The position numbers and the translations under genes are program-made. The notes under the pieces are model-generated. The model was not told where the DNA came from and made no database searches. It worked only from the letters and a program-made list of their open reading frames with translations. This document shows positions 42,573-62,634 of a stretch of DNA of 64,000 nucleotides, piece by piece. This DNA is from a candidate division KSB1 bacterium (GTDB lineage Bacteria > Zhuqueibacterota > Zhuqueibacteria > Zhuqueibacterales > Zhuqueibacteraceae). Location: positions 62,001 through 126,000 of the forward strand of contig JAPDQB010000007.1 of NCBI GenBank assembly GCA_034506175.1, written 5' to 3'. Positions within the stretch are counted from its first letter, which is position 1. Each line of letters begins with the position of its first letter.

Positions 42573-44252
42573 ATGATGGCCAATTTGCCGAGAGAAAAGA
42601 ACGCTTTGATTCGCCGGCGGCATTGGCGAATCCGCCTTTTTGTTCCTCTGCTTGTTTTCGTTTTGCCGGCGTTTTTGTCGCTGGCCGCATTTTACCTCGG
42701 CTGCGATTCGGTGGAAACCCCGACGATTGCTTTGTCGACGTCTACCGGCATGTTGGAGGTATCCGACGTGCAAACGTTGATCGCGCATGCGGTCGAGCAA
42801 GGCGAACGCCTGGGCGTGAAAGCCAGCATCGCGATCACAGATCGCGAGGGCAATGTGCTTGGGGTTTTCAACATGAATGGAATTCCCAGCCCGGATATCA
42901 CAGTCACCAATCCCATCGTCGGCGCGATTGCCAAGGCGCGCACCGCTGCTTATCTCAGCAGCAACCAGCACGGTTTTTCCACCTTGACCGCCTGCTACAT
43001 CACCCGCAATCATTTTCCCCCGAACATCGACAACACCGCGGCCGGGCCGCTGTTTGGCGTGCCGCGTTCGAGCATCGGCGGCGGCGATATTCAACCGAAC
43101 GGCGATTTGGCAGCCGGGCGGCCGCCTTTGGACGCGCAAGGCCTCACCGGTGTTCCCGGCGGCGTGCCGATTTATAAAAATAATTTGCTTGCCGGCGGAA
43201 TCGGCGTGAGTGTTGACGTTCCGTCACAAGCGGCTTTAGACAAGATTCTTTGTTGCTGCGGCGGCATGCTGCCGGATGAAACCATCGCGCTGGGCGCGGT
43301 GCTGGGCGGCTATGAAACCCCGGTGAATTTGCGCGGCGACGGCATTTTCATCGACGGCATTCGTTTTCTTTTTGCCAACACCGCTCCACCGGCGGCGAAC
43401 TTTACCCTCGCCTTTTCCGCGCTCGGCAGCCGCGGCGCCGTTGATGCACGATTTCCAATTCGCGCCACACCGCCGCCAAAATTCCCGCAAACCCCGGCGA
43501 ACGAACTGTTTCGCGAAGTCAATCTTGGCGCCGGTTTCGATTTCAGAATCCGCGGTGGCACGTCGTTGACGAGCGATGACGTTCGCAAAATTATTACGCA
43601 AGCGGCGACGCAAGCGGCCAAAACCCGCGCCGCCATTCGCCGGCCTGCCGGCGTTCCCGCGCAAGTTTTCATCGCCGTTGTGAATGTCGGTGATGGCCGG
43701 GTTCTCGGCATCGGCCGGACGCCGGACGCCACGTTGTTCAGCTTCGACGTCTCCGCCCAAAAAGCCCGCACCGCTTTGGCCTTCAGCGATCCGGGCAACC
43801 TGCTCGGCCAAATGGTTCGCCGTGAATTGGGATTGGCCGCCAATGCCGGGTTGGCCATCTCTTCGCGCGCGGTCGGTTTTCTGGCGCAGGATTTTTATCC
43901 GCCCGGTATCACACGCGAAGAACAGGCGCTTGATCGGCCAATTGCTCCCGGCCCCTTTTTCATCATGCCACCACAACGCAACGGTGATGAATTCATTTTT
44001 CAAAAAAATCTCGGCACGCAACCTTACGGCAACGGCATCACGATTTTTCCCGGCGGGGTGCCACTGTATAAAGGCAGTCAGCTCGTCGGCGGTATCGGCA
44101 TCAGCGGCGACGGCGTCGATCAGGACGATCTCATTTGCTTTGCCGGCGCGCTGGGCTTCGAGCCGCCGCCGGAAATTCGCTGCGATCAATTCAAATACCG
44201 CGACATCAGATTGCCGTACGTCAAATTTCCGCGCCAGCCGGAGATAAAATGA
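42573..44252 (+). CDS. Tandem GlcG/HbpS (DUF336-type heme-binding) protein
   Basis: A 559-aa envelope protein. An N-terminal hydrophobic segment (about residues 22-42) ends at C44 (YLGCDS), so it may be a lipoprotein, though the lipobox is not canonical. Two GlcG/HbpS domains follow, at about 55-270 and 345-545; each has a DV(Q/R)xxIxxA opening, a GxVLGxxR or GNVLGVF strand and a K-A-R-T-A helix. HbpS-type proteins bind heme or act as sensors. The start ATG at 42573 follows GGAGGTGG. The stop overlaps the next start (44249-44252), so it opens the redox cluster and is coupled to the barrel gene. Confidence 0.82.
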   Translation: MMANLPREKNALIRRRHWRIRLFVPLLVFVLPAFLSLAAFYLGCDSVETPTIALSTSTGMLEVSDVQTLIAHAVEQGERLGVKASIAITDREGNVLGVFNMNGIPSPDITVTNPIVGAIAKARTAAYLSSNQHGFSTLTACYITRNHFPPNIDNTAAGPLFGVPRSSIGGGDIQPNGDLAAGRPPLDAQGLTGVPGGVPIYKNNLLAGGIGVSVDVPSQAALDKILCCCGGMLPDETIALGAVLGGYETPVNLRGDGIFIDGIRFLFANTAPPAANFTLAFSALGSRGAVDARFPIRATPPPKFPQTPANELFREVNLGAGFDFRIRGGTSLTSDDVRKIITQAATQAAKTRAAIRRPAGVPAQVFIAVVNVGDGRVLGIGRTPDATLFSFDVSAQKARTALAFSDPGNLLGQMVRRELGLAANAGLAISSRAVGFLAQDFYPPGITREEQALDRPIAPGPFFIMPPQRNGDEFIFQKNLGTQPYGNGITIFPGGVPLYKGSQLVGGIGISGDGVDQDDLICFAGALGFEPPPEIRCDQFKYRDIRLPYVKFPRQPEIK

Positions 44253-46120
44253 GGAAACGGATCAACATGCGAGAATATAAACAGTTTTTATCGGACCACG
44301 GATTGAAGAATCCCGCTGATGAAACGCTTGGCCTGTGGGATTCTTCAATCGGCGGGAATTGTTGGCTTGGGCGTTTGCCAGGCTTTGCTGCCGTGTGTTT
44401 GATCTTCACTGCGTTCTTCACTTCCAACGTGTTGGCACAGGTACAGCAAGACACCTCCGCGGCGAAAACGCAACCGGCGATGCAAGATACCGCCAAAGCG
44501 CAAAAACTGGAAGATTTTATCATCCGCCACAATCGCTGGGAAGAGATCAAGCCGCCGCCCTACGAGCTGAATGTGCGAGGCCGGCCGATCGATCCCTACA
44601 ATCAGAACAAGCTCAAAGGCGATTATCCGATCATCGGGCAAAACACCTTTCTGGTGCTGACCGCAACGGTCGATAACATCGTCGAAGCCGCGCGCCTGCC
44701 CACGCCCAGCGGGGTGAGCGCCGACGAGCCGCGCAGCCTGGATTTCTTCGAGGAAGGCGAGCGCCTGGCCGTCATCGGCTTGGCCAAGTTGAGCCTGGAG
44801 TTTTACCACGGCGACGTGGCGTTCCGGCCGCGCGATTGGGAGTTTAAAGTGGCCGGCGCGTTCAATTTGAATTTCGTCGATCTGCGCGAGAACAACGCCG
44901 TCAACATCAACCCGCTGAAAGGCACCAACCGCACGGACAGCCATTTCGGTTTGCAGGAGCTGTCGGTGGAGAAGCATCTTTTCAATGTCAGCGACCGCTT
45001 TGATTTCATCTCCCTCAAAGCCGGCATTCAAAAGTTCAACAGCGATTTTCGCGGTTTCATTTTCAACGATTTCAATTTGGGCGCCCGGCTTTTCGGCAGC
45101 TTCAATGCCAATCGCTTTCAGTATAATCTCGCTTTTTTCGACATGCTCGAAAAGGACACCAACAGCGAGCTGAATATCTTCGCGCCCTTCCGTTACAAAA
45201 AGCGCGGCAAGGAGAAGTTCGGATTTTTCAGGTACGATGAACGCAATCAACAGGTGGGCATTTTCAATTTGTACAAACAGGATCTGTTTACGCTGGGCTA
45301 CACCGGCCAGTTGAGCTTTCATTATTTGCACGACAAGGCCAGCTCGCATTTTGACGAGAACGGCTTTCCGGTGCGTCCGGCGGTGATCGGCAACGTCAAG
45401 CCGCACGACATCAAGGCCTATTATCTCGGCTGGACCGGCGACGGCCATTTGGGCCGCTTGAATATCAATCACGCGTTCTATCAGGTTTTGGGCAAGGACG
45501 ATTTCAATTCCGTGGCGGGCCGGCCGTTGAAAAAGATCAACGCGCAAATGGCGGCGCTGGAGCTTTCCATCGATGAGGATTGGAAGCGCTATCGCCTCTC
45601 GGCGTTTTATTCCTCCGGCGATTCCGATCCGGGCGACGACACCGGCAAGGGCTTCGACACGATTTTGGATTTTCCATTTTTTGCCGGCGGGCCGTTCAGT
45701 TTTTGGAATACGCAGGGCATCAAATTGCAGGGCGTGAATTTGGTGAATCGCTTCAGCCTGGTGCCGGATTTGCGCAGCAGCAAGCCCGAAGGCCAGCCCA
45801 ATTTCGTGAATCCGGGCATCATTATTTTGAACGCGGCGCTCGACGCGGAAATCACGCCCAAGCTGAAAACGATTTTTAATTTCAATTATCTGCGTTTCGT
45901 GAACACCGAATCGCTGACGCCGTTTTTAAATCAACCGGCGATTCACAAACAGATCGGGTTGGATTACGGCTTCGGCATCATTTACCGGCCGTTCTTGAAC
46001 AACAACGCGATTTTCACGCTGTCGACAACGGCGTTTACGCCGCTCAACGGCTTTGCGGACATTTTCGAATCGCGGCAGCAGTTGTTCTCGGTGTTCACGT
46101 CGCTGATTTTTACGTATTGA
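44249..46120 (+). CDS. Outer-membrane beta-barrel protein, possible porin of the cytochrome conduit
   Basis: A 623-aa protein whose start overlaps the GlcG-type stop codon (ATGA). An atypically long N-terminus (about 40 polar residues) precedes a signal segment FAAVCLIFTAFFTSNVLAQ; the later ATG at 44270 is possible. The mature chain consists of alternating amphipathic strands with aromatic girdle residues and ends LIFTY, as for barrels. No family is recognised with certainty. Being immediately upstream of a secreted decaheme cytochrome, it may play the porin role of porin-cytochrome (MtrB/OmbB-like) conduits, but no MtrB hallmark is visible. Confidence refers to the barrel call. Confidence 0.72.
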   Translation: MRKRINMREYKQFLSDHGLKNPADETLGLWDSSIGGNCWLGRLPGFAAVCLIFTAFFTSNVLAQVQQDTSAAKTQPAMQDTAKAQKLEDFIIRHNRWEEIKPPPYELNVRGRPIDPYNQNKLKGDYPIIGQNTFLVLTATVDNIVEAARLPTPSGVSADEPRSLDFFEEGERLAVIGLAKLSLEFYHGDVAFRPRDWEFKVAGAFNLNFVDLRENNAVNINPLKGTNRTDSHFGLQELSVEKHLFNVSDRFDFISLKAGIQKFNSDFRGFIFNDFNLGARLFGSFNANRFQYNLAFFDMLEKDTNSELNIFAPFRYKKRGKEKFGFFRYDERNQQVGIFNLYKQDLFTLGYTGQLSFHYLHDKASSHFDENGFPVRPAVIGNVKPHDIKAYYLGWTGDGHLGRLNINHAFYQVLGKDDFNSVAGRPLKKINAQMAALELSIDEDWKRYRLSAFYSSGDSDPGDDTGKGFDTILDFPFFAGGPFSFWNTQGIKLQGVNLVNRFSLVPDLRSSKPEGQPNFVNPGIIILNAALDAEITPKLKTIFNFNYLRFVNTESLTPFLNQPAIHKQIGLDYGFGIIYRPFLNNNAIFTLSTTAFTPLNGFADIFESRQQLFSVFTSLIFTY

Positions 46121-46191
46121 AAACTGAATTGTATTCAGAGCTTTTCTTTGACAGGATTTTAAGAAAAGTAATTCAGTGAGGAGGATTCATC

Positions 46192-46494
46192 ATGATGCAG
46201 TATGGAGAGTTGCGAAAAGCCGGCATCAACGCCGAAAAGAAAAAACCCAACATCGTTTATTATGAAGGAGAAAACTTTGGAGAATTCGAGGCCGACATCT
46301 TGGTTGAAAATGCGATTATTTTGGAACTCAAATCGGTTCGACAATTGGCCAAGGCTCACGAAGTGCAGCTCATCAATTATCTTGTTGCCACCGGCAAGGA
46401 CGTCGGATTACTTTTGAATTTTGGGGAAGAAAAAGTTGACGTAAAGAGAAAAGTAAGGGAACTAAACCAATATTCTAGACAAACGGAAGCCTGA
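46192..46494 (+). CDS. GxxExxY-family protein, N-terminally short
   Basis: A 100-aa protein with the later part of the GxxExxY family (PD-(D/E)XK-like fold): FEADILVENAIILELKSVRQL, AHEVQLINYLVATGK and GLLLNFGEEKV. The eponymous N-terminal G-x2-E-x2-Y segment of usual 120-130-aa members is missing. A GAGGAGG ribosome-binding site precedes the ATG, so it may still be translated. GxxExxY genes are found near intergenic repeats and are suspected mobile. The gene interrupts the redox cluster and is flanked by ACAGGATT-type repeats on both sides. Confidence 0.8.
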   Translation: MMQYGELRKAGINAEKKKPNIVYYEGENFGEFEADILVENAIILELKSVRQLAKAHEVQLINYLVATGKDVGLLLNFGEEKVDVKRKVRELNQYSRQTEA

Positions 46495-46516
46495 AGCTTT
46501 TGGGGCGCAATAACAG

Positions 46517-46615: not shown

Positions 46616-46686
46616 TTTCAGGAGTTCTCATTAACTTTGTCTTTTCTGGCCATCTCAACAAGCAGTTCTTGATCGGAGAAAGTACT

Positions 46687-49600
46687 ATGAAACGAAATAA
46701 TGGAGTCTGGCTCGTTCTGGTGATCTTGGTTTTTGTTTTGGGCCGATTTCAAGCCGCCCTGGCGCAAGAGCAGGAATCGAAGCTGATCCGGCAAACGCAG
46801 GAAGAAGCCGATCGCAAAAGCAAGGGCTGCCTCACCTGCCATGCGAAAATCGAAAATCCCAACATGCACAAATCCACGGCGATCAAGCTGGGCTGCACGG
46901 ATTGCCACGGCGGCAACGCCGAGGCGACAACGGTGAAAGCCGGCCACGTGAAGCCGCGCTTTGAGGATAAATGGAAAACTTCAGCCAATCCCGTCAACTC
47001 GTATACGCTGTTGAACAAGGAAACCCCGGCGTTTGTGAAGTTCGTCAATCCCGGGGATTTGCGCGCGGCGGATGAAACCTGCGGGCCGTGCCATGCGAAA
47101 CAAGTGTTGCAAGTGAAAAAGAGCATGATGACGACTTCGGCGCTGCTATGGGGCGGCGCGGCGTATAACAACGGCATCATTTCCACCAAAAATTATATTT
47201 TGGGCGAGAGCTACAGCCGTGATGGCTTTCCGCAGCAGATCAACACCGTGCCGGCGCCGACCGCTGATGAGATGAAATACAAGGGAATTTTGCCGGCGCT
47301 CTTTCCGCTGCCGCGTTGGGAAATCACGCAGCCGGGCGATTATTACCGCAGCTTCGAGCGCGGCGGCAAAGTGTTTCGCGGCAATCCCTCGGAGATCGGC
47401 ATTCCCAATCCGCTCGAGGAGCCGGGCAAGCCGGACAACAAGCTCAGCGACCGCGGCAAGGGCACACAATTGCTCATCAGCTCGCCGGTGCTCAATATTC
47501 ACAAAACGCGGTTGAACGATCCGCATCTTTCGTTCATGGGCACCAACGATCATCCCGGGGATTATCGTTCGAGCGGTTGCTCGGCATGTCACGTGGTGTA
47601 TGCCAACGACCGCTCGTTCGTGCATTCCGGGCCGTATGCGAAATTCGGCAATCGCGGCCAAAGCCGGACGGCGGATACGACGATCTCGAAAACGGAATCC
47701 GGGCATCCGCTGAAGCATGTCTTCACGACCTCGATTCCGTCGAGCCAGTGCATGGTGTGTCACATGCACCAACCGAATGCGTTCCTGAACACGTATTTCG
47801 GTTATCAAATGTGGGATTATGAAACCGACGGCGAGGGCATGTATCCGGCAAAGCAAAAGTATCCCTCCAACGCCGAGGCGTTCAAGCTGTTGGCCTCGAA
47901 TCCGGAAGAGGCGGTGCTGCGCGGCAATTGGGGCGATTATGAATTTCTCGCCAAAGTTAGCGAGGCGAATCCCAAGCGGAAGAACAGCCAGTTCTCCGAT
48001 TATCACGGCCACGGCTGGGTTTTTCGCGCGGTGTTCAACAAAGATCGCAAGGGCAATTTGCTGGATAAAGACGGCAAAATCGTTCCGCCGGAATCCGAGC
48101 ATAAATTTCACGGCGTGGTGCCGCTCGAAGATCCGGAGAAAGGTTTTTGCAATGAGGAATGCCGGCAGGCGCAAAAGGCGGTGCATCTGAAGGACATTCA
48201 CGCGGAAAAAGGCATGCACTGCGTCGATTGTCATTTTTCGCGGGACAATCACGGCACCGGCCAGCTCGTCGGCGAGTTTCACAATGCGATTGAAATTCAA
48301 TGCGTCGATTGCCACGGCACCATCACCGAGCGTGCGAGCTTGCGGACTTCCGGCCTCGCCGCGCCACCGGGCGGCACCAATCTCGCGGAGCTGAACACGC
48401 CGTTCGGCGACCGGCGTTTTCTGAGACGCGCCAATCGCATTTTCCAGCGCTCGATGCTTTTTGATACGCTGCGCTGGGAAATTCCGCAAGTGATGGACAT
48501 CATCGATCCCACTTCGCCGCGCTACAATGCCAGGGCGCGCCTGGCCAAACTGATGGGCAAGAACGGCGAGATGACGCCGGCCTCGAACCCGGCGCAGTTG
48601 GCGCATGCGAATGAAAAAATGGAATGCTACACCTGCCACACCTCGTGGATCACGAACTGCTTCGGCTGCCATTTGCCGCAGCAGGCGAATTGGAAGAAGG
48701 ACATGAACCATTACGAAGGCGAGACCTCGCGGAACTGGACGACGTACAACCCGCAGGTGTTGCGCGACGAGGGTTTCATGTTGTGTATCAACGCGACGAC
48801 GAAGGGCAATAAAGTGGCGCCGGCGCGTTCGTCGAGCGCGTTGGTTTTAAGCTCGAAAAATGCCAACCGCGAGCAAATTTATTTGCAGCAGCCACCGATT
48901 TCAGCGCCGGGTTACAGCAGCCAGGCGTTCAATCCGCATTTTCCGCACACCGTACGCACGAAGGAAACCCGCGTCTGCACCGATTGCCATCTTTCTTCCA
49001 AAAACGACAACAACGCCTGGATGGCGCAGGTGCTGTTGCACGGCACCAATCTCGTCAATTTCATTGGCAAATACGCCTACGTCGGCATGGGCAAGCACGG
49101 TTTCGAGGCGGTGCAGGTAACGGTCGATGAAGAGCCGCAGGCGGTGATCGGCAGTTACTTGCACAAGCTGGCGTATCCGGATTATTACAAAAAGCACGAG
49201 CGGGCCGGCAAAAAACTGCAAACCGCTTATCATCACGGCGGCACGAATATTTTGAGCGTGCAGTTGCGCGGCGAGTATCTGTACACGGCGAACGGTGAAG
49301 ATGGTTTTCGCGTTTACGATGTGGCAAATGTTGATAACAAAGGCTTCTCCGAGCGGATGGTTTCAGCACCGGTTTCACCGTTCGGACAGGACACGCAGGT
49401 GAAAACGAAATTCGCCACCGCGGTCGCGCTGCCGACCAACATGCCGGTCGACACCCGGCGTGTGTATCGCCCGGAGAATCAGGAGCAGTGGCCGATTCAT
49501 CCGTCGTACAGCTACGCTTACATCACGGACAAATACGAAGGCTTGATTATCGTTGACGTGATGACCCTGGTGGACGGCGATCCGCGCAACAACTTTTTGA

Positions 49601-50418
49601 AGCGCGCGGTGACGTTCAATCCCAGCGGCGTGTTGAACGGCGCGGTGAATTTGACCGTGGCCGGCAATTACGCTTACATTCTTTGCGATGTCGGGCTGGT
49701 GGTCGTCAGCATCGCCAATCCGCTGCAACCCCGGGTTGTTGGTGGCATTAAATCGCCGGAGCTTAAAAAACCCAGGGCCATCGCCGTGCAGTTTCGTTAT
49801 GCTTTCATTTGCGATGAAGAAGGCGTGAAGGTGGTCGAGATCACCACGCCGGAAAAGCCGCGATTGGTGCCGAACAACCTCGTGAAACTGGCCGAGTCGC
49901 ATGATATTTACGTGGCGCGCACGTATGCCTACGTCGCGGCCGGCAAGCAAGGCCTGGCGATTATCGACGTGGAAAATCCCGAAGCAATGAAGCTCGATCA
50001 AATGTTCACGGCGGACGGCGTGATGAACGATGTGCGCGGCGTCAAAGTCGCGGCGACCAATGCGAGTATCTTCGCGTACGTCGCCGACGGCAAGAACGGC
50101 TTGCGGGTGCTGCAACTGACTTCGCCGGGCGATACGCCGACGTATCTCGGCTTCAGCCCGCGGCCGAATCCGAAACTGATTGCCACGCACAAAGGCCACG
50201 GCGAGGCGATTGCGGTGTCGAAAGGCTTGGATCGCGACCGCGCGGTTGACGAGAGCGGCAATCAGGTGAGCATCTTTGGCCGCCTCGGCTCGCGTCCGTT
50301 CACCCTCGAAGAGCAGCGCCGGTTGTATTGGAAAAATGGCAAGATTTGGACGGTGAGCGACGACGGCAAGGTTAACATGGAACAAGGCGGAAATGGGAGG
50401 GCGATTGGGAGTAAGTAA
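46687..50418 (+). CDS. Secreted decaheme cytochrome c fused to an LVIVD beta-propeller
   Basis: A 1243-aa protein. The signal peptide ends at about residue 26 (AALAQ). Ten CxxCH heme motifs are seen between residues 48 and about 775: CLTCH, CTDCH, CGPCH, CSACH, CMVCH, CVDCH twice, CYTCH, CFGCH and CTDCH. The remaining 450 residues hold LVIVD-type propeller strands (YAYITDKYEGLIIVDV, YAYVAAGKQGLAIIDVENPE, FAYVADGKNGLRVL). LVIVD repeats occur in bacterial surface proteins. ATG at 46687 has GGAG 8 nt before it. It is probably an exported electron carrier, possibly on the cell surface. The stop is followed by a GACCGGTCAC element and the next cytochrome. Confidence 0.9.
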   Translation: MKRNNGVWLVLVILVFVLGRFQAALAQEQESKLIRQTQEEADRKSKGCLTCHAKIENPNMHKSTAIKLGCTDCHGGNAEATTVKAGHVKPRFEDKWKTSANPVNSYTLLNKETPAFVKFVNPGDLRAADETCGPCHAKQVLQVKKSMMTTSALLWGGAAYNNGIISTKNYILGESYSRDGFPQQINTVPAPTADEMKYKGILPALFPLPRWEITQPGDYYRSFERGGKVFRGNPSEIGIPNPLEEPGKPDNKLSDRGKGTQLLISSPVLNIHKTRLNDPHLSFMGTNDHPGDYRSSGCSACHVVYANDRSFVHSGPYAKFGNRGQSRTADTTISKTESGHPLKHVFTTSIPSSQCMVCHMHQPNAFLNTYFGYQMWDYETDGEGMYPAKQKYPSNAEAFKLLASNPEEAVLRGNWGDYEFLAKVSEANPKRKNSQFSDYHGHGWVFRAVFNKDRKGNLLDKDGKIVPPESEHKFHGVVPLEDPEKGFCNEECRQAQKAVHLKDIHAEKGMHCVDCHFSRDNHGTGQLVGEFHNAIEIQCVDCHGTITERASLRTSGLAAPPGGTNLAELNTPFGDRRFLRRANRIFQRSMLFDTLRWEIPQVMDIIDPTSPRYNARARLAKLMGKNGEMTPASNPAQLAHANEKMECYTCHTSWITNCFGCHLPQQANWKKDMNHYEGETSRNWTTYNPQVLRDEGFMLCINATTKGNKVAPARSSSALVLSSKNANREQIYLQQPPISAPGYSSQAFNPHFPHTVRTKETRVCTDCHLSSKNDNNAWMAQVLLHGTNLVNFIGKYAYVGMGKHGFEAVQVTVDEEPQAVIGSYLHKLAYPDYYKKHERAGKKLQTAYHHGGTNILSVQLRGEYLYTANGEDGFRVYDVANVDNKGFSERMVSAPVSPFGQDTQVKTKFATAVALPTNMPVDTRRVYRPENQEQWPIHPSYSYAYITDKYEGLIIVDVMTLVDGDPRNNFLKRAVTFNPSGVLNGAVNLTVAGNYAYILCDVGLVVVSIANPLQPRVVGGIKSPELKKPRAIAVQFRYAFICDEEGVKVVEITTPEKPRLVPNNLVKLAESHDIYVARTYAYVAAGKQGLAIIDVENPEAMKLDQMFTADGVMNDVRGVKVAATNASIFAYVADGKNGLRVLQLTSPGDTPTYLGFSPRPNPKLIATHKGHGEAIAVSKGLDRDRAVDESGNQVSIFGRLGSRPFTLEEQRRLYWKNGKIWTVSDDGKVNMEQGGNGRAIGSK

Positions 50419-50446
50419 ATCAAGCCAAACTTCTGAGCAGGTGGCA

Positions 50447-50495: not shown

Positions 50496-51446
50496 ATGAG
50501 CAAACACGCATTTCTCAAAATCTTTGGCTCGGTGATAACGTTGACGTTTTTGCCTGCCAAGAATCTGGCGCAACAATACCAAACCCTCGGCCCGGCGAGC
50601 TGCGGCCTCGGCCAAACCAACTGCCACACGCGGGAAAACGGCTGGTGGACCACCGATGCCCATCACAACAGTCTGGATCGCTTTTATGAACCGGACGAAG
50701 AGTGTTTGCAAATTGCCAAGCTCTACGGCATCACACCGGCAGACATGCTCAAGGGCAACAAAGGCTGTATGCGTTGTCATGGCACGGTGATCTCGGAAAA
50801 AGCCGCGAGAGAATCTGAGTTCGGCGTGAGCTGTGAAAGCTGTCATGGCCCTGGCAGCGGTTACAAGGACCCGCATTCGGAGAAACCCGGCGGTTACGAA
50901 AAAGCGCTGAAATTGGGTTTGGTGGAGCTGAAAAATTTGGACAAGCGCGCCGTGGCGTGCGTTTACTGTCATTATATTACCGAGCCTAAATTGATTTCTG
51001 CAGGCCATTCCACCGGCGAAAAATTCAATTACGTCACCAAGATGAAGACGATTGCCAATCCCAATCACTGGAAACATCCGCTTGAGCCGGCGGAGCAATT
51101 GCGACCGGCGTTCGCCAAAGCGTTGAAAGCGCGAGGGCCGGCGCCAGTGGCGACAGCGCCGCCGGCGCCCAAACCCTCGCCAACGGCTCCAACTCCGCCA
51201 CCTTTAACAGCGACCATAACTGAGGCTCCGTCACCCTCACCGACACCGCGACCACGGCCGGCGCCGCGGCCACCAACGCCGCGGCCGGTCCTACCCGCGA
51301 CGCCGCCGGCGGAAGACGTCCAGCCGCTCACGCTCGATCCGTTTCCAACCGTGAGCGACAGCACGTCGCTGCAGGAACTCATTTTAATTTTGAAAAAGCG
51401 ATTGGAGTATTTATATCAGAAGACCGGAGGAATTGATCAACCATGA
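50496..51446 (+). CDS. Cytochrome c554-like multiheme protein with Pro-rich C-terminus
   Basis: A 316-aa secreted protein. The signal peptide is about residues 1-25 (LPAKNLAQ). Three CxxCH motifs are present: CMRCH, CESCH and CVYCH. The N-terminal CGLGQTNCH could be a fourth heme site with unusual C-x6-C-H spacing, resembling the cytochrome c554/c' family where the first site is canonical. The WWxxDAHHNSLDRF region fits this family. After residue 205 comes a Pro/Ala/Thr-rich linker of about 70 residues and a short helix, perhaps for spanning or docking. The stop overlaps the next start by 4 nt (51443-51446). Confidence 0.85.
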   Translation: MSKHAFLKIFGSVITLTFLPAKNLAQQYQTLGPASCGLGQTNCHTRENGWWTTDAHHNSLDRFYEPDEECLQIAKLYGITPADMLKGNKGCMRCHGTVISEKAARESEFGVSCESCHGPGSGYKDPHSEKPGGYEKALKLGLVELKNLDKRAVACVYCHYITEPKLISAGHSTGEKFNYVTKMKTIANPNHWKHPLEPAEQLRPAFAKALKARGPAPVATAPPAPKPSPTAPTPPPLTATITEAPSPSPTPRPRPAPRPPTPRPVLPATPPAEDVQPLTLDPFPTVSDSTSLQELILILKKRLEYLYQKTGGIDQP

Positions 51447-53122: not shown

Positions 53123-53124
53123 AC

Positions 53125-53985
53125 ATGGCTGCGAAAAAATCCCAAAAGGGCCTTTGGGCGCGCGTGGAAAAATCAGTGGAATCGCCATTCTGGCTGCGCC
53201 TGTTTATCATCGCAACCGCGCTTTGCTTGCTGGCTTACCTGCTCAACGCCCTCATCGCCGAAATCCGACCCTACAATTGGTGGGGGTTGACGTATGGCAC
53301 GGTGGCCTCGCTTTTAATGGGCGGTGCCGGATTGTACGCGGTGCGCCGGCGGATGACCAAAACCGCTTTGCAGTGGCGTCTGGGCAAAGCCCAGCCCTGG
53401 CTGCAATTTCATGTGTACGGCGGCACGTTGGCGCTGCTGCTCACCTTCATGCACACCGGTTTCAAATTGCCGACCGGCGTCTTAACCTGGTGGCTGTGGG
53501 TTTTGACCATCTACATCACGCTCAGCGGCATTCTCGGCGTGCTGCTGCAAAAATGGATTCCGAAAATTCTGGCTTCCGGTTTGGCGATGGAAGTGGTTTA
53601 CGAGTGGATTCCGGAGTTGATCGATGAAATTCGCGGCAAGTGCGACAAACTGATTCAAACCTGCGCCGACCCGGTGAAAGATTTTTATCGAAAAAACCTC
53701 ATCGTGGCGCTGGCGACGGTGCAGCCGCGCTGGATTTATTGCGTCGACATCACCGGCGGCATCCAATCGCGCCTCAAGCAGTTCGACTATTTGCGCCGCT
53801 TTTTGCCGGCGGATGAAAAAGACAAGCTGGATCGCTTGGAAACGTATTACCGGACGAAGCTCGAGCTCGACGCGCACTACACCCTGCAAACCGCGCTGCG
53901 CTGGTGGATGTACACCCACGTGCCGCTGTCGCTGGTGCTGCTGATTTTGATCGTGTTTCATTTGTTCGCGGTGTTTTACTATTAA
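53125..53985 (+). CDS. Di-heme b-type cytochrome membrane subunit
   Basis: A 286-aa protein with four TM helices: about 25-48, 54-72, 95-141 (two helices) and 262-284. Four histidines are placed as bis-His ligands for two hemes: H96 and H110 in one helix, H265 and H279 in the last, each pair 14 residues apart. A cytoplasmic or periplasmic loop (145-255) lies between. This spacing is typical of cytochrome b561/NarI/FdnI-like quinone-reactive subunits. I use ATG 53125, 8 nt after GGAAGGAAGGG; a GTG six nt earlier overlaps the upstream stop. It is the natural quinone partner of the neighbouring ferredoxin and cytochromes. Confidence 0.88.
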   Translation: MAAKKSQKGLWARVEKSVESPFWLRLFIIATALCLLAYLLNALIAEIRPYNWWGLTYGTVASLLMGGAGLYAVRRRMTKTALQWRLGKAQPWLQFHVYGGTLALLLTFMHTGFKLPTGVLTWWLWVLTIYITLSGILGVLLQKWIPKILASGLAMEVVYEWIPELIDEIRGKCDKLIQTCADPVKDFYRKNLIVALATVQPRWIYCVDITGGIQSRLKQFDYLRRFLPADEKDKLDRLETYYRTKLELDAHYTLQTALRWWMYTHVPLSLVLLILIVFHLFAVFYY

Positions 53986-54491: not shown

Positions 54492-56138
54492 ATGCCCAAT
54501 CCTAACGACACCAAAAAGAAAGGCGCCTTCGGCGTCGCGCAGCTGCCGGTGGCGCTGAAGTATATTTTTCCGGATCGCCGCCGCACGATGATGGCCATCG
54601 GCGGCGTGGCGTGTCTGGTGCTGCTGGGATATTTTTTAGCCGATTTTTTTCTGCTCAAAAGCAGCTTCACCGCCAGCGGCCCGCTTTCTTCGTATCACGC
54701 CACCTTCGAGAAAGATTGCGCCAAGTGCCACGATCAGCTCAAAGCCGTTAGCGATGCCAATTGCTCGGTTTGCCACGAAAAGGCCGGCGCCAAAACCGAC
54801 GCGGTGACCGGCGACGAGCAGAAGATTTACACCTTCGCAGCGCATTATCTCTACCGCTCCGGAAATGTGGAACAGGTCAAAATGGCGAAGCCGCAATACG
54901 CCGATCGCGAAACGCCCTGTTACATTTGCCATCAGGAGCATAAAGGCCGCGAAGCCAGAATCACGAATGTCCCGGATTCGCGCTGCCTCGACTGTCACCG
55001 CTACGGCTCATTCAACAAAACGCATCCGGAGTTTGATTTTGTCGCCGAAAATATTCCGGATGATTCGACCATGAAGTTCACGCACATCAAGCACGTCCGA
55101 GAGGTCGTGAAGCGTGAAAATCTCGTTGATATCGAGCGGGCGTGCTTGTATTGCCACAATCCGCAGCCCGACGGGAAAAATTTTGGTCTGATTAATTTTG
55201 ATCAGCATTGCGATGCCTGCCACCTGACGACGAGTGTCGCCACCTCGCCATTGAAAATCAAAGACGACGCCGATCCGTTTGCGCCGGGGGTTGAAACGCT
55301 GGAGGCCATTCGCCAGCGGCGCGGGCCCGGCACCTTGTGGGCGTTTTACGCCAATCCCTTCGAATTCAAGCTGCGCGGCAATCGTGTCGTCAAGCAGCCG
55401 CTTTATCATCAAGACCCGTGGATTCTCGAAAATTTGCGGCGGATTCGCCGGCTGCTTTATCCGGATTTGGAGTTCGCCGATTTGTTGAAAGCCGGTGGCA
55501 AGCTGGCCTCACAAAGCCCGCAGGCTTTGTCGGCAACCGTCTATCAAGAGGCCATTCAAACTTTGCAAAATTATTCGCTGCAATTGCGCAATCGCCCGGA
55601 GCCGGAGATTCAGCGCGATCTCGCGCAAATCGATTCGCTGCTCAAAGAGGCGCAAAGCACGCTGCGCCGCCAAACCAACACGATTGCCGGGCCGCCGTTT
55701 CTCGCCCAGCCGGCGCCGCCGAATCCGGCGCTGGATGCGACGCAGATTGCGGACTTGAAAGCCTTTGCCCAGGATGTCGCCGGGCCGCCTTGTCTCGAGT
55801 GCCACATCGTGAGCGAGGCGAATATTCTACGCGTGCAAAAAGACCAGCGTATTTTAAAGCGGGCCGAGTTCGATCACCGCGCGCATATTTTGGAACGGCG
55901 CTGTTTGGAATGTCATACGCAAATTGCCATCACCAAAGAGGTCAACGGCATGACGGTGGTGCGGCCGGTGGATGACGTGTCGAAATGGGAGGACCGCGCC
56001 GCGATTCAAAACATTCCCAACATTGCCAACTGCCGCGAATGCCACAACCCCGCGGAAAGCTCGAATCGCTGCGTGACGTGCCATTATTTTCATCCGAACA
56101 AAACCCAGCGCTCGAGCTTGTTGTTGTATTTGGATTAG
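54492..56138 (+). CDS. Membrane-anchored decaheme cytochrome c
   Basis: A 548-aa protein: a cytoplasmic N-terminal stretch of about 30 residues, one TM anchor (roughly 34-56) and a periplasmic domain. Ten CxxCH motifs are present: CAKCH, CSVCH, CYICH, CLDCH, CLYCH, CDACH, CLECH twice, CRECH and CVTCH. A heme-free helical segment (about 260-430) separates the first six from the last four. The NapC/NrfH-type quinol site is not recognisable. It likely carries electrons between the membrane and periplasmic or extracellular acceptors, close to the cytochrome b. GAGGT precedes the ATG. It is followed by the FHA genes. Confidence 0.9.
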   Translation: MPNPNDTKKKGAFGVAQLPVALKYIFPDRRRTMMAIGGVACLVLLGYFLADFFLLKSSFTASGPLSSYHATFEKDCAKCHDQLKAVSDANCSVCHEKAGAKTDAVTGDEQKIYTFAAHYLYRSGNVEQVKMAKPQYADRETPCYICHQEHKGREARITNVPDSRCLDCHRYGSFNKTHPEFDFVAENIPDDSTMKFTHIKHVREVVKRENLVDIERACLYCHNPQPDGKNFGLINFDQHCDACHLTTSVATSPLKIKDDADPFAPGVETLEAIRQRRGPGTLWAFYANPFEFKLRGNRVVKQPLYHQDPWILENLRRIRRLLYPDLEFADLLKAGGKLASQSPQALSATVYQEAIQTLQNYSLQLRNRPEPEIQRDLAQIDSLLKEAQSTLRRQTNTIAGPPFLAQPAPPNPALDATQIADLKAFAQDVAGPPCLECHIVSEANILRVQKDQRILKRAEFDHRAHILERRCLECHTQIAITKEVNGMTVVRPVDDVSKWEDRAAIQNIPNIANCRECHNPAESSNRCVTCHYFHPNKTQRSSLLLYLD

Positions 56139-56272: not shown

Positions 56273-57121
56273 ATGAAAGCCAAACTCTTCTGCAAAACCG
56301 GCATTTTATCCGGCGCGAAATATGACATCGGCCGCGAGGCGACGATCGGCAAGGAGCCCGGCAACAGCATCCTGCTGGACACCAAAATTATTTCCGGCCG
56401 GCACGCGCGCATTTTTTTTGATGAAAAAGAACAGGCTTATTTTCTGGAAGATTTACGCAGCCGCAACGGCACCAAATTGGACGGCCTGCCGGTCACGGAA
56501 ACAGAAAAACTGGGTGATTTGCACGTGATCACCCTCGCCGACACGTTTGATTTTATTTTTCAGCTTGTCCAAGGCGATGGCCAGCCGGTGACGCAAAAAG
56601 AGAAATTGCCACCGGCACAACCCGAGAAAAGCCCGGAAGGCAAAACCCGCGTTGCCCAAGAGCCTTTTGCCGCGCCGGCGCCGCCGCGTGAAGAAAAAAC
56701 GGCGGCGCCAACTGGCGACAAGACTCTGATTGGCGCGGCCTTGCCGCCGATTCCGGTTTTCAAATCGCAAACTGAAAGCGTTGTTGCGCCGAAATCGAAA
56801 CCGACGATATCGCGCCCCACTTTTTTCCTCGAAATTAAAAGGCCGGGGCAGGAACCGGTGACGTTTAAATTGAAGGAAGGCGAGAACGTTGTTGGCCGCC
56901 TGGCTGAGTGCGATATTTGTGTCGATGACACTTCCTTGTCGCGGCAGCACGCCGTGGTCACGGTCAAATCCGGAAAAGTGACGGTGAGAGATCTCGGCAG
57001 CAAAAATCACACGTTTGCCGGCGACAAGGAAATCACCTCCGAAGTCGAGATTCGGCTGGATACGCGCCTCAAGTTCGGCGCGGTGGAGGCGCATCTTATT
57101 TACAAAAAAGGTGAATCATGA
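56273..57121 (+). CDS. Protein with two FHA domains
   Basis: A 282-aa cytoplasmic protein. FHA 1 (residues 20-95) has the motif ATIGKEPGN, ISGRHARI and LRSRNGTKLDG. FHA 2 (about 200-270) has VVGRLAECDI, SLSRQHAVV and DLGSKNHTFAG. A Pro/Ala/Glu-rich linker joins them. FHA domains bind phosphothreonine, and both copies retain the R, SxxH and N residues needed. It likely reads phosphorylated partners made by the kinase encoded 3 kb downstream. The stop overlaps the next start (57118-57121), coupling it to the FHA-oxidoreductase. Confidence 0.92.
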   Translation: MKAKLFCKTGILSGAKYDIGREATIGKEPGNSILLDTKIISGRHARIFFDEKEQAYFLEDLRSRNGTKLDGLPVTETEKLGDLHVITLADTFDFIFQLVQGDGQPVTQKEKLPPAQPEKSPEGKTRVAQEPFAAPAPPREEKTAAPTGDKTLIGAALPPIPVFKSQTESVVAPKSKPTISRPTFFLEIKRPGQEPVTFKLKEGENVVGRLAECDICVDDTSLSRQHAVVTVKSGKVTVRDLGSKNHTFAGDKEITSEVEIRLDTRLKFGAVEAHLIYKKGES

Positions 57122-59436
57122 GCACAACTTCTGAATATCGGCGCGACGGCATCTTGATTCTCGACCGCCCCGTTCAACTGCCGGAAGTTTTGGACATCCT
57201 GATCGTCGGCGGCGGGCCGGCCGGAACCGGCGCGGCGTTTCGTGCCAAAGAACTGGGGCTCTCGGCACTGGTGATCGACTACGACGATCTGATGAAGCAG
57301 ATTCGCGATTATCCCAAAAACAAAAAAATTCTGCCCAACTACGGCGTCGGCGACACGGCGAAATTTCCCAAATGCGGCAAGCTGATCGGTTTGCTGCCGT
57401 TTGAGCCGATTGACAAGGATGAGCTGTGCGAACGCTGGAAAGGCTACTATCGCGAGCACAACGTGCCGGCGATCATCGGCTTGGAGCTGATTGACTTGCA
57501 GCGCCAGCCGGACGAAGTCTGGAAGGCGAAAGTGTATAATGCCAATACCAAATCCGAGCAATTTTTTCTCGCGAAGCACGTGGTGTTGGCGATGGGCAAC
57601 GGCGCGCCGCGACCGTTTGACATTCCCGGCAATACCAGGGACATCGCCTATCGCATGGCCGATCCGGCGTTGTACGTGAACGCGCCGGTTTTGGTGATCG
57701 GCGGCGGCACTTCGGCGGCCGAAGCGGTGATTGCCATCTCGAATGAAAAAATCAACAACAACGATGCGTCCGCCGTATTTTGGTCTTATCGCAGCAGCAA
57801 GCTGCCCAAAGTGTCCAAGGCGCTGGCCGATGAGTATTTTGCTGCCTTCGTCGAAAACGGCAACATCCGCACTTGTCCGAACAGCGAACCGGTGGCGGTG
57901 GTCACGGCGGAAGATCGCCAGGAATATCTTTCGATTCGCGTCGACCGGCGCATCATTGCCGGCCGGCCGAATGAAACCGTGCATTTTGAATTTCTCAAAA
58001 AATATTGCCTCGCCTGCATCGGCCAGGAAATTCCGGAAAGTTTTTTGAACAAGCTCGGCATTCCGCTGATGGCGGGCGGACCCAGCGGTAAAAAGCGCAT
58101 CGTCGTGACGCCCCTGCGGGAAAGCCGGCAACCGAATGTTTATTTGATCGGCAGTATGCTGGGACAAACGTATCTCGAAACCGAGGATTTCAATGCCGAT
58201 CCGGCGACGTTTCGGGAAAAGAAATTCGGCGGCAACATCAAGGCCGCGATCACCGATGGCGTTTTCGTGACGGAGGTGATCAAACAAAAGCTGGCGCAAC
58301 AAGCGATCATTCAAGTCGATCTCGCTTTCTACGAAGAGGACGCCGAGCAAAAGGAAATCTCCAGGCTGATGCCAGTGGCGGCACCCATGTTGGTGGAGCC
58401 AGCACCGGTTGAAGCGGCGCCGGCCCCTCGGGCGGCGCTGATTCGAATCTCCGCCAATGACATGGAAGTCGAAAAATTTTCTCTCAACAGCCTGGGCCTC
58501 ACCACCATTGGCCGGAAAGATTGCGATCTTTCTTTTCCGAATGATGCGCTGTTGGCCGACCGGCACGCTTCGATTTCCAGCACGGCTGACGGTTATTTTC
58601 TCCGCGACGATGGCAGCCATTATGGCGTTTTTCTCAAGCTGCGGGCCGCCTCGCCGCTGGAAGTTTCCTCCGGCGACGTCGTGCAGTTGGGAAAACAGTT
58701 TTTGGTGTTTCGATTCGAGAATGAAAATTATACGGTTCTGCATTACGACGCCGCCGGGCAGCTCATGAAACGGCACGCGCTTGAGGAAGGAACGGTGGAA
58801 ATGGGCAGAGCCGCGAGCCTCGTTCTTGACGGCAACGACGCGATTTTGTCGCGGCGCCATCTCGCCGTCACCCGGCGGGCCGGCAAGGTTCTGATTCAGG
58901 ATTTGAATAGCGCCAATGGCAGTTATATAAAAGTCAGAAATGCGGTTCGGCTGGAGCCGGATGATCAATTCCGCCTCGGACAGTTGATCTTTAAATTCGT
59001 TTTACAGCAAGAAGAAACGAAATACAGCGTGATCTTCAAAACGCCGCCGGCGATTGCAGCAAAACCGACAATTGAGAAACCGGCCCCGCCGGCGGCAGCG
59101 AAGCCGGCCCCGGCTGCCGAAGCCAAAGACCTCAAACCGGAAGGCATGGTGGTGGTGTTCAAAAACGCCGGCAAGACGTGTCCGATCGCGAAGCGCGGCC
59201 AGACGATTTGCGACATTGCGGAGAAAAACGGCATTAAAATCAAAGCCGATTGCCACGAGGGCAATTGCGGCAGTGATCCCATTCGCATTCTTTCCGGGGC
59301 GGAAAATTTGAACGATGTGGGCGGCATCGAGCAAACCACGCTGGAAGAGAAAAACAATCTCACGCCCGGCGAATACCGGCTGGCCTGCATGGTCAAGCCG
59401 AAAGGGCCGGTGGTGGTGGAGATTTTGGCGACATAA
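57118..59436 (+). CDS. FAD/NAD(P)-type oxidoreductase fused to two FHA domains and a 2Fe-2S-like domain
   Basis: A 772-aa fusion. Residues 20-380 form a thioredoxin-reductase-like flavoprotein with GGGPAGTGAAF (32-42), a second nucleotide motif VIGGGTSAAEA near 198, and a YLIGSMLGQTYLE closing motif. Two FHA domains follow at about 440-530 (TTIGRKDCDLSF, ADRHASIS) and 550-625 (LSRRHLAV, NSANGSYI). The C-terminal 90 residues look like a plant-type [2Fe-2S] ferredoxin, with ADCHEGNCGSDPIRI and a later LACMV. The usual third ligand cysteine (CxxxxCxxC) is replaced by Asp. The protein thus couples NAD(P)H-linked redox to phospho-dependent binding. ATGA overlap with the double-FHA gene. Confidence 0.9.
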   Translation: MSTTSEYRRDGILILDRPVQLPEVLDILIVGGGPAGTGAAFRAKELGLSALVIDYDDLMKQIRDYPKNKKILPNYGVGDTAKFPKCGKLIGLLPFEPIDKDELCERWKGYYREHNVPAIIGLELIDLQRQPDEVWKAKVYNANTKSEQFFLAKHVVLAMGNGAPRPFDIPGNTRDIAYRMADPALYVNAPVLVIGGGTSAAEAVIAISNEKINNNDASAVFWSYRSSKLPKVSKALADEYFAAFVENGNIRTCPNSEPVAVVTAEDRQEYLSIRVDRRIIAGRPNETVHFEFLKKYCLACIGQEIPESFLNKLGIPLMAGGPSGKKRIVVTPLRESRQPNVYLIGSMLGQTYLETEDFNADPATFREKKFGGNIKAAITDGVFVTEVIKQKLAQQAIIQVDLAFYEEDAEQKEISRLMPVAAPMLVEPAPVEAAPAPRAALIRISANDMEVEKFSLNSLGLTTIGRKDCDLSFPNDALLADRHASISSTADGYFLRDDGSHYGVFLKLRAASPLEVSSGDVVQLGKQFLVFRFENENYTVLHYDAAGQLMKRHALEEGTVEMGRAASLVLDGNDAILSRRHLAVTRRAGKVLIQDLNSANGSYIKVRNAVRLEPDDQFRLGQLIFKFVLQQEETKYSVIFKTPPAIAAKPTIEKPAPPAAAKPAPAAEAKDLKPEGMVVVFKNAGKTCPIAKRGQTICDIAEKNGIKIKADCHEGNCGSDPIRILSGAENLNDVGGIEQTTLEEKNNLTPGEYRLACMVKPKGPVVVEILAT

Positions 59437-59460
59437 AAATTCACCTGAAAATTTTAAATT

Positions 59461-60270
<810 letters not shown>

Positions 60271-60339
60271 GTAAACTGAAAAGACCACAAAAATTTTTTA
60301 TTCGCGTGAATGAGTGGTTGACAACATGGAGGATTGAGC

Positions 60340-62634
60340 ATGATCGGCGGAAAAATTTCTCATTATGAAATTCTGAAGAAAATCGGCGAGGGCGGCATGG
60401 GCGAAGTGTATCTCGCCGAGGACGTCAATCTTCACCGCAAAGTCGCCATCAAAGTCCTGGCCGCGAGGTACACCAGCGATGCAGATTTCAAAGCGCGTTT
60501 CCTGCGCGAAGCCCGGGCCACGGCCGCGCTCAGCCATCCCAACATCGTCACAATCCATGAAGTCGACGAAGAACAGGCCATGTACTACATCGTGATGGAA
60601 TACGTCGATGGCGAATCGTTGAAGGAGTTGATCCGGCGCGAGCCGCTGCCGGTGGCGCGGGTAATCGAGATCGCCAGGCAAATCGGCGACGGACTCGGCG
60701 CCGCGCATCGGGCCGGCGTCGTGCATCGCGATATCAAGCCGGGCAACATTCTCCTGAACAAGGCCGGCCAGGTCAAAATCGTCGACTTCGGCCTGGCCAA
60801 GCTGCAAGGCGCCACCGGCTTGACCCGCGACGGCATGTCGATGGGCACGCCGCATTACATGTCGCCGGAACAGATCAAAGGCGAAGCCACGGATCACCGG
60901 TCGGATATTTTCGCGTTCGGCGTCGTGCTCTCTGAAATGCTCACCCGCCAACTCCCCTTCAAGGGCGAAACAACTCCGGTCGTGATATATGCGATTATAA
61001 ACAAGGCGCCGGAGCCGGCGATCAAACACAATCCGGCGGTGACGAAAGGCTTGCAGAAAATCATTAACCGGGCGCTTGAAAAAAATCCGAAGGCGCGCTA
61101 TCAGCAGATGGAAGACTGCGTCCAGGATTTGATGAAAGAAAAGCACGCGCTGCTGCTGGCAGAGCAGGCAACCAAGACGATGGCCATCGGAGAATCTACT
61201 GTCAAGAAACTTCGTCGCGAAAAAAAATGGCGACCAGTGCTCATCGCCGCCACAGCGTTAGTTTTGCTGGCTCTGGTCATTTGGTTCATACTGGATTGGC
61301 GTCAAGGAAAATCAAGCCTCGCCACGCTATCGATCACCAGCGCGCCGGTTGGCGCCGCGGTTTTTCTGAATGGCGATTCGCTTGGCCTCACGCCGTTGCG
61401 GGCGCCGGTTGACAAAGAGGGGTCAATCTCACTGCGTTTTCGCCAACGCGATTATTTCCCGCTCGACACGACGTTTGCGGTCAAAAAAGGCGTCACCTAT
61501 AATTTTACCGCAGCCCTGCGGCCGGCGGCGCGGGTGGCAATTATGGTTGATCCATCAGATTCTGAAGTGAGGATCGACGGCGAAATCGTCGAACCATCTC
61601 AGCTTGCGGCGCTGCAGTTGCCGGTTGGCGAGCACAGTATCAGCCTGGCGCGGATGGGATATGATTCCAAACAAGAGCGCTTTAGTTTGCAGCAAGGCGA
61701 CAATCCTTCACGCCGTTACGCGCTGGCGAAGCAACCCGGGGTCGAGCCGCCGATAACGGCATTGGGCGTCGTGCAGATCGACTCGCAGCCGCCGGACGCT
61801 GAGGTCGTGCTTGACGGCAGGCGCGTTGGCAGCACGCCGTATCAAGGCAAAAATTTAAAACCCGGCCGTTACACAATTCTCGTGAGCAAGGATGGCTTTG
61901 AAACTTATTCCGGCAGCATCGAGATTCGGCCCGGCCAAACCACGCCGCTCCTGGTTTCGCTCAAAGCCGTGATCTCAGCCGGCCAGATTAGCGTCACATC
62001 CGATCCGGAAGGCGCGACGATTTTGCTGGATGGCCGCGAAGCCGGAACCACGCCGCAAGAACTCACGAACATTCCGGCCGGCGGGCATGAGATCGTCCTG
62101 CGCAAAAAAGGCTATAAAGATTATGCCGCCTCCGTCACCGTCGCGCCGCAGCAAACGCAAAACGTCGTGGCAAATTTGGTGAGGCTCATGGGCAGGTTGC
62201 AAGTTTTGATTAAGCCGTATGGCACGATTTATCTCGACGGCAGTTTGCAAATCAGAGACACCAACGTCCGGTTTACGAAAGAATTGCCGGTTGGGTCGTA
62301 CGAGCTTAAAGTGACGCATCCGAGTTACGGCGTATATTTCAAGATCTTGAATATCGAGGCGAATGCGCCGTTGGATATTTTGGTTGATTTCAACCGGCAA
62401 CTGACGCTTCCAGTGACGTCCACCGATGAAACCGGCGAGAAATTTGTGTGGGGAGAAATTTACGTCGACGGCAAAGCACAAGGCCAAACGCCCAGGCCGC
62501 TGACGCTTCGGCTCGGGCAACATACCATCGAGGTCCGGCGCGAGGGCTACACCTCGCTCGACAAACCGATGACGATTAATTTGGAAGAAGATCGGGGGCA
62601 GCCTTTGAAATTTCGGTTGAAGAAAAAGGAATGA
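60340..62634 (+). CDS. Hanks-type Ser/Thr kinase with TM and PEGA repeats
   Basis: A 764-aa membrane kinase. The kinase domain spans about 1-275: glycine loop GEGGMGEVY, catalytic lysine in VAIKVL, HRDIKPGN, DFG and the activation-loop motif GTPHYMSPEQ. One TM helix is at about 296-318. The extracytoplasmic part has about five or six PEGA-type beta domains, seen as VxIDSQPPDAEVVLDG, SVTSDPEGATILLDG and EIYVDGKAQGQTP. PEGA domains are thought to bind ligands or cell-wall components and may sense the envelope. GGAGG lies 8 nt before the ATG. The PP2C gene directly upstream and the FHA proteins make a complete phospho-signalling set. Confidence 0.95.
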   Translation: MIGGKISHYEILKKIGEGGMGEVYLAEDVNLHRKVAIKVLAARYTSDADFKARFLREARATAALSHPNIVTIHEVDEEQAMYYIVMEYVDGESLKELIRREPLPVARVIEIARQIGDGLGAAHRAGVVHRDIKPGNILLNKAGQVKIVDFGLAKLQGATGLTRDGMSMGTPHYMSPEQIKGEATDHRSDIFAFGVVLSEMLTRQLPFKGETTPVVIYAIINKAPEPAIKHNPAVTKGLQKIINRALEKNPKARYQQMEDCVQDLMKEKHALLLAEQATKTMAIGESTVKKLRREKKWRPVLIAATALVLLALVIWFILDWRQGKSSLATLSITSAPVGAAVFLNGDSLGLTPLRAPVDKEGSISLRFRQRDYFPLDTTFAVKKGVTYNFTAALRPAARVAIMVDPSDSEVRIDGEIVEPSQLAALQLPVGEHSISLARMGYDSKQERFSLQQGDNPSRRYALAKQPGVEPPITALGVVQIDSQPPDAEVVLDGRRVGSTPYQGKNLKPGRYTILVSKDGFETYSGSIEIRPGQTTPLLVSLKAVISAGQISVTSDPEGATILLDGREAGTTPQELTNIPAGGHEIVLRKKGYKDYAASVTVAPQQTQNVVANLVRLMGRLQVLIKPYGTIYLDGSLQIRDTNVRFTKELPVGSYELKVTHPSYGVYFKILNIEANAPLDILVDFNRQLTLPVTSTDETGEKFVWGEIYVDGKAQGQTPRPLTLRLGQHTIEVRREGYTSLDKPMTINLEEDRGQPLKFRLKKKE

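Follow-up and report, generated by a model that had tools for sequence, protein, structure and literature searches.

What brings multiheme cytochromes, ferredoxins, FHA domains, a Ser/Thr kinase and a PP2C phosphatase together on one DNA strand? The question is raised by a gene cluster of a candidate division KSB1 bacterium, which occupies positions 42573-62634 of the window, i.e., of the whole 64,000-nucleotide stretch of contig JAPDQB010000007.1 (assembly GCA_034506175.1, positions 62,001 to 126,000 of the forward strand) that was analysed. An initial annotation, made from the sequence alone, proposed a single functional unit in which electrons travel from cytoplasmic NAD(P)H through ferredoxin and cytochrome b to exported decaheme cytochromes under the control of phosphorylation and a cyclic nucleotide. 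All the genes it named are present, all on the + strand (Table 1). The conserved part of the cluster appears, on balance, to encode a transmembrane electron-transfer complex that serves two interchangeable outer-envelope partners and is subject to FHA-mediated docking by phosphorylation. At the sequence level, the gene identities, the cofactor ligands, the conserved linkage and the gene fusions described below are established.

A scan of 84,980 species genomes yielded 51 loci. In metagenome-assembled genomes (MAGs) bearing at least seven phylum-level labels, the core genes follow the same order: a c554-like cytochrome, a polyferredoxin fused to cyclic nucleotide-binding-like (cNMP-like) domains, cytochrome b, a decaheme cytochrome with a transmembrane (TM) anchor, the double-FHA protein FHA2, and a flavoprotein that ends in FHA-FHA-[2Fe-2S]. 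The full-core records, every one of which is a MAG or an uncultured assembly, are labelled KSB1, Ignavibacteriae/Chlorobi, Rhodothermales, Zixiibacteriota, Acidobacteriota, Nitrospirota, Gemmatimonadetes and Deltaproteobacteria. At informative loci, defined by sufficient upstream DNA and a strong flavoprotein score, the flavoprotein is accompanied by FHA2 (38/44), the TM decaheme (30/37), cytochrome b (30/36), the cNMP-polyferredoxin (24/29) and, upstream, the c554-like cytochrome (21/27). Such clustering is far beyond chance. Of the 82 genomes in the window's phylum, 16 encode the polyferredoxin; the flavoprotein is encoded in 12, each of which belongs to those 16. Counted by genus, the 7 flavoprotein-bearing genera are nested in the 11 polyferredoxin-bearing ones of 59 (hypergeometric probability ~1e-6, relatedness ignored). 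Divergence is correlated among five core proteins (Mantel), a correlation in which species relatedness is uncontrolled and which does not separate co-inheritance from shared phylogeny. Thus, the single functional unit has stood the test set for it beforehand, namely conserved co-occurrence across genomes.

Among lineages, the gene order may also be rotated, split or fused, with the gene set remaining together. The window genome itself (5.86 Mb), which has MAGs labelled candidate division KSB1 among its relatives, carries a second, rotated copy: cytochrome b, TM decaheme, FHA2, flavoprotein, GlcG, outer-membrane barrel, LVIVD decaheme, c554, cNMP-polyferredoxin, a 332-residue protein, and kinase. 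In one genus, the flavoprotein and PP2C genes lie on a contig separate from the other core genes, and both loci are retained in the 4 genomes examined. At another locus (L039:5959-9555), two inserted genes for secreted proteins separate cytochrome b from the TM decaheme; one of these proteins matches FlgD_ig/CHU_C-type sorting domains.

Natural gene fusions indicate how the components may be wired. A single open reading frame (ORF) encodes both the polyferredoxin and cytochrome b in several KSB1 relatives (L103-L106, L112) and in one Nitrospirota MAG (L060). In a Polyangiaceae MAG (L097:8975-11878), a 967-residue ORF combines ferredoxin clusters with a cNMP-like and an FAD/NAD(P) domain; its C-terminus, judged by eye, resembles the 5-TM cytochrome b in its hydrophobic and His-containing pattern, and the ORF adjoins a gene for a 774-residue, 30-heme cytochrome. 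Because of these fusions, electrons are likely to pass between FAD and ferredoxin and between polyferredoxin and cytochrome b, and the initially proposed FAD-ferredoxin-cytochrome b-decaheme route thereby finds backing in two kinds of natural fusion. Simpler sister units in order- and class-level KSB1 relatives (L046:5223-9015; L011-L013, L015) encode a TM-2x4Fe4S-FAD protein, a related cytochrome b and a 17-heme cytochrome. They share with the window core the four His of cytochrome b, as well as FAD, ferredoxin and multiheme components, but have no FHA, cNMP or [2Fe-2S] domains.

The membrane component is a diheme cytochrome b. Its four His, H98 and H112 in helix 91-113 and H267 and H281 in helix 231-287, are invariant in 35/35 core sequences and also in a 39-row alignment that includes the sister system; distributed over two TM helices, they are spaced as in stacked bis-His hemes. 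According to the sequence and a confident structure model (pLDDT 92.7), the helices and a positive-inside loop put one heme at either face of the membrane. This protein finds no match in Pfam or NCBIfam, its profile gave chance matches only against PDB sequences, and Foldseek returned no solved fold (best E 0.69, TM-score <0.4). The known diheme cytochrome b families (bc1/b6f, NarI, HydC and b561) were rejected on these grounds. Since Foldseek is weak for helical bundles, it is safer to speak of a new family than of a new fold. In the polyferredoxin, the 16 Cys that ligate four [4Fe-4S] clusters in the HycB/DmsB manner are invariant (28/28), and the best PDB match is HycB3 of the hydrogen-dependent CO2 reductase (HDCR).

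Among solved structures, the flavoprotein comes closest to ferredoxin-NADP and YpdA-type reductases with the thioredoxin-reductase (TrxR) fold, and its glycine motifs for FAD and NAD(P) do not vary. A TrxR-like or bacillithiol disulfide reductase was considered and rejected, as no Cys is present at the aligned CAIC and the YpdA score is 63.7 bits against a cut-off of 339.9. The plant-type [2Fe-2S] ligand set C-x4-C-x2-C...C is not found in the C-terminal domain. Alignments of the Fer2 and cNMP regions with PDB sequences, used to locate missing ligands, place Asp720 at the third cluster Cys of plant-type ferredoxins, with Asp in 42/47 sequences covering the site. In most sequences, Asp720 is accompanied by an extra Cys698, 14 residues ahead of the first ligand; four sequences have the canonical Cys and Leu at 698, and five have Asp and Leu at 698.

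From the fusions, the topology and the cofactor counts, we infer an order of electron transfer. The TrxR-fold flavoprotein, residing in the cytoplasm, would exchange electrons with NAD(P)H and pass them via its own [2Fe-2S] cluster to the polyferredoxin, which would dock with its four [4Fe-4S] clusters on the 5-TM cytochrome b. The two stacked hemes of the latter would span the inner membrane and deliver electrons to the membrane-anchored decaheme, and from there they may reach the c554-like carrier, which would supply, or be supplied by, a multiheme cytochrome associated with the outer membrane and located next to a beta-barrel. The four FHA domains, two on FHA2 and two in the flavoprotein, might attach the flavoprotein, or some other partner, to the complex; phosphorylation of a Thr by the neighbouring kinase would lead to docking, and dephosphorylation by PP2C to release. 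The cNMP-like domains may be a scaffold, or a sensor for something other than a cyclic nucleotide. NAD(P)H as the donor, phospho-switching and outward flow are presumed together with this order.

Some features of the data weigh against such a scheme. Three KSB1 genomes (and one incomplete genome) possess a polyferredoxin-cytochrome b-decaheme unit without the flavoprotein, so that NAD(P)H entry would be optional and other donors could serve the polyferredoxin. A kinase is missing from the surroundings of roughly one in two informative loci. In the window, a 506-bp gap holding an antisense ORF splits cytochrome b from the TM decaheme. Entry of electrons from NAD(P)H, as initially suggested, loses its obligatory character in view of the three flavoprotein-less genomes.

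For the outer-envelope part, two alternative partner sets precede or flank one core. Context A, found in the window, in its paralogue and in several phyla, comprises GlcG, the barrel and the decaheme-LVIVD cytochrome. Context B consists of a pentaheme cytochrome, a different protein of ~500 residues, whose C-terminus seems to resemble that of a barrel, and a 7-8-heme c554-type cytochrome. In both contexts, the barrel, a putative one in context B, is adjacent to an exported multiheme cytochrome (44249-50418 in the window), as in a porin-cytochrome conduit. The context-A barrel has no Pfam family and no PDB sequence relative; its AlphaFold model (mean pLDDT 65), which is confident in the barrel part, matches AlgE and OprD-type porins. 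With ~18-20 predicted strands and such a fold, its likeness to an MtrB-type sheath is unclear, and the possibility that it forms a substrate channel has to be taken seriously. Of the porin-cytochrome conduit foreseen by the initial annotation, the adjacency is thus retained, and the classical sheath is weakened.

It is accordingly conceivable, if rather unlikely, that the same core feeds a reductase of soluble compounds such as oxyanions, in which the barrel admits the substrate and the decaheme-LVIVD cytochrome reduces it, with no conduit to solid minerals. The strand number and the AlgE/OprD likeness would suit such a function, and so would the distant relationship of the decaheme to ExtM (Table 1) and of the context-B pentaheme to ExtKL, given that the porin ExtI of the Geobacter ext cluster has been implicated in the reduction of selenite and tellurite but not of Fe(III) citrate (PMC5877670). 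However, these matches are far under the family cut-offs (for ExtKL, 52 against 250 bits in NCBIfam), the barrel model is only partly confident, and context B puts a different barrel and different cytochromes on the same core.

The regulatory part of the proposal depends on the FHA domains, in which the residues that contact phosphothreonine (GR, S..H, N(G)) are largely preserved. In the second FHA domain of the flavoprotein, G, R, S and N are present in 54/54 sequences and H in 50/54; the first domain is less conserved (R 40/54, S 38/54). The two domains of FHA2 have R/K in 32/40 and R in 38/40, S in 37/40 and 39/40, and H in 38/40 and 40/40, respectively. A kinase or PP2C is encoded near the flavoprotein in 13/27 loci with enough flanking DNA, for which the binomial probability is ~2e-5 at 40 kinases per genome and ~0.008 at 80. 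The window genome has 14-15 kinase matches overall, yet one of them stands at each of its two clusters. A kinase or PP2C also adjoins the KSB1 cluster variants without the flavoprotein, and the three flavoprotein-less relatives keep a divergently oriented FHA2 gene adjoining GlcG. The conserved FHA residues, the retention of FHA2 in the absence of the flavoprotein and the recurrent kinase/PP2C neighbours support phosphorylation-linked regulation, and control of the complex by protein phosphorylation, as first proposed, is plausible.

Alternatively, the FHA domains might be phospho-independent structural adaptors holding the flavoprotein, with the kinase and phosphatase acting on other targets. 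FHA-fold domains can indeed be structural modules (cf. the Pfam overlap with Yop-YscD), and the weaker first FHA domain of the flavoprotein and the kinase-free loci would fit this idea. We regard it as rather improbable, given that, of the other three domains, most have near-invariant phosphothreonine-contact residues and that kinase/PP2C adjacency recurs above expectation.

The kinases themselves vary. The one beside a related cluster (L111:4982-7501) has a formylglycine-generating-enzyme-like (FGE-sulfatase) domain, not PEGA repeats, and the kinase of the window-genome paralogue cluster (L109:5770-8250) is similar to it in length. In a KSB1 relative, a DUF5777 membrane beta-barrel protein is encoded directly after the kinase (L104:16084-17328), and proteins of similar size adjoin the cluster in L103, L105 and L106.

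The complex could also run in the oxidative direction, with electrons of an external or periplasmic donor moving inward to reduce ferredoxin or NAD(P)+. All the modules are reversible redox carriers, and the core is found in Nitrospirota, including a MAG of Troglogloeales, an order with proposed Mn(II) oxidisers. Nevertheless, this direction is unlikely, as inward movement of electrons along a diheme wire opposes the membrane potential. Moreover, the Mn-oxidation models for Troglogloeales rely on Cyc2, PCC and complex I (PMC9040806), not on this module. Three strong matches to heme-copper oxidases in the window genome make it likely that the bacterium respires aerobically as well.

Cyclic-nucleotide gating, which the initial annotation included, is not supported and is very unlikely. 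Two domains do match PF00027 and retain the ribose-contacting Glu. However, the key phosphate contact of this domain family is an Arg, and neither domain has it in any of the aligned homologues: in domain 1, its position is taken by an invariant Gln196 of a WPQ motif (28/28), as placed by HMMER alignments to chains of the PKA regulatory subunit and MloK1, and domain 2 has no conserved Arg in the phosphate-binding cassette, with a Trp near the site in 27/28 sequences. Additional KSB1 copies show the same Arg-less pattern where the motif search caught it.

Table 1. Genes and ORFs of the cluster and its immediate neighbours (coordinates of the window)
Position	Strand	Feature	Basis or remark
42573..44252	+	Secreted double HbpS/GlcG-domain protein, context-A partner	Pfam PF03928, two stretches; adjoins barrel/LVIVD genes in paralogue and other genomes
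44249..46120	+	Outer-membrane beta-barrel, ~18-20 strands, AlgE/OprD-like fold	AlphaFold model, Foldseek E 1.8e-15 to AlgE
46192-46494		GxxExxY/PDDEXK_3 gene	Cluster interior, between barrel and decaheme-LVIVD genes
46687..50418	+	Exported decaheme cytochrome with LVIVD propeller repeats, distant ExtM relative	10 CXXCH, PF08309, NCBIfam ExtM 90 bits vs cut-off 800
50496..51446	+	c554-like periplasmic cytochrome	3 CXXCH, PF13435
51443..53122	+	Two degenerate cNMP-binding domains fused to four-cluster [4Fe-4S] polyferredoxin, HycB/DmsB type	PF00027, Fer4, 16 Cys
53119..53985	+	5-TM diheme cytochrome b, unclassified family	4 invariant His (H98/H112 in TM3, H267/H281 in TM5)
54084-54320	minus	78-residue ORF, antitoxin-like by eye	In the gap between cytochrome b and TM decaheme
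54492..56138	+	N-terminally anchored periplasmic decaheme cytochrome (TM decaheme)	10 CXXCH, PF14522/PF14537
56273..57121	+	Double-FHA protein (FHA2)	PF00498 x2
57118..59436	+	FAD/NAD(P) flavoprotein (YpdA/TrxR-type, ferredoxin-NADP reductase-like)-FHA-FHA-[2Fe-2S], Asp720 for third Cys	
59461..60270	+	Stp1/IreP-type PP2C phosphatase	NF033484 at 230.5 bits, cut-off 230
60334..62634	+	Ser/Thr kinase with four PEGA repeats	PF00069, PF08308
62631-63272		TPR gene	Overlaps kinase by 4 nt

In the window copy, the ATGA-type overlaps reported initially are found, 4 nt long, at five junctions: GlcG/barrel, c554/cNMP-polyferredoxin, cNMP-polyferredoxin/cytochrome b, FHA2/flavoprotein and kinase/TPR. Since the PDDEXK_3 gene and the gap with the antisense ORF interrupt the operon, a single transcript is not assured in the window genome, and the cluster may comprise two or more transcription units. 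Scans for promoters and terminators yielded no transcript boundary that could be relied on, terminator-like sites being fewer than in shuffled sequence. These interruptions are what could suggest a chance neighbourhood of unrelated redox and signalling genes, an explanation of negligible probability that is refuted by the conserved synteny and fusions across phyla. The PDDEXK_3 insertion was not seen at that position in the other cluster copies examined. Elsewhere in the window, a 33-bp tandem repeat of ~8 copies (31017-31277) encodes an 11-residue EADAKTEKRFA repeat in a predicted ORF. The sole match of an Rfam search was a tRNA.

Control of envelope-crossing electron flow is usually considered to be transcriptional or redox-driven. 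If the proposed docking is true, bacterial electron flow out of (or into) the cytoplasm would be switched by protein phosphorylation. A module that is conserved in so many uncultured phyla and has four FHA domains next to a kinase and a phosphatase would open the post-translational gating of this flow to direct tests. The module also supplies a functional hypothesis for an unclassified cytochrome b family and for several orphan multiheme clusters in metagenomes. It may tentatively be proposed that we deal with a widespread and so far undescribed class of redox complexes, having a new family of cytochrome b, a flavoprotein whose docking is switched by FHA domains, kinase and PP2C, and electron handover via an Asp-ligated [2Fe-2S] cluster.

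The earlier statement that no named system has this composition agrees with the literature, where no description of the module was found among the open-access publications searched; FHA and cyclic nucleotide proteins are unmentioned in the main text of the Oslofjord KSB1 and Manganitrophaceae papers. The Geobacter ext cluster (extHIJKLMNOPQS) likewise groups a porin-like barrel and multiheme cytochromes with an inner-membrane b-type cytochrome. However, a Rieske protein and a bc-type cytochrome b belong to it, and among the genes described for it there is none for a polyferredoxin, a flavoprotein, an FHA protein, a kinase or a phosphatase. Membership in the ext group was rejected because the ExtM and ExtKL scores are far under the curated cut-offs and the cytochrome b of the module is unmatched. 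Porin-cytochrome conduits (MtrCAB, OmbB-OmaB-OmcB) also have a barrel by exported multihemes, of which the module has two alternative sets on the same core; the module differs from them in the predicted strand number and AlgE/OprD-like best fold of its barrel.

Complexes of the Hmc, Qrc and CbcL types combine, as the module does, a periplasmic multiheme cytochrome, an FeS subunit and a membrane cytochrome b. Unlike them, the module shows no NrfD or NarI-type subunit, its cytochrome b has no match, and a cytoplasmic FHA-flavoprotein is added. The HycB-type polyferredoxins of HDCR and formate hydrogenlyase have the same four [4Fe-4S] clusters, but that of the module bears two degenerate cNMP domains upstream, and its partner is a cytochrome b and not a hydrogenase or formate dehydrogenase. 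Similarly, the FAD and NAD(P) Rossmann domains are common to the module flavoprotein and the YpdA/TrxR-fold ferredoxin-NADP reductases, whereas the former has no TrxR CxxC and carries the C-terminal FHA-FHA-[2Fe-2S] extension. Inner-membrane b/c electron conduits are already known; what appears, from sequence comparison, to be new and to match no system is the FHA-bearing flavoprotein, the cytochrome b family, the degenerate cNMP-polyferredoxin and the Asp-substituted ferredoxin.

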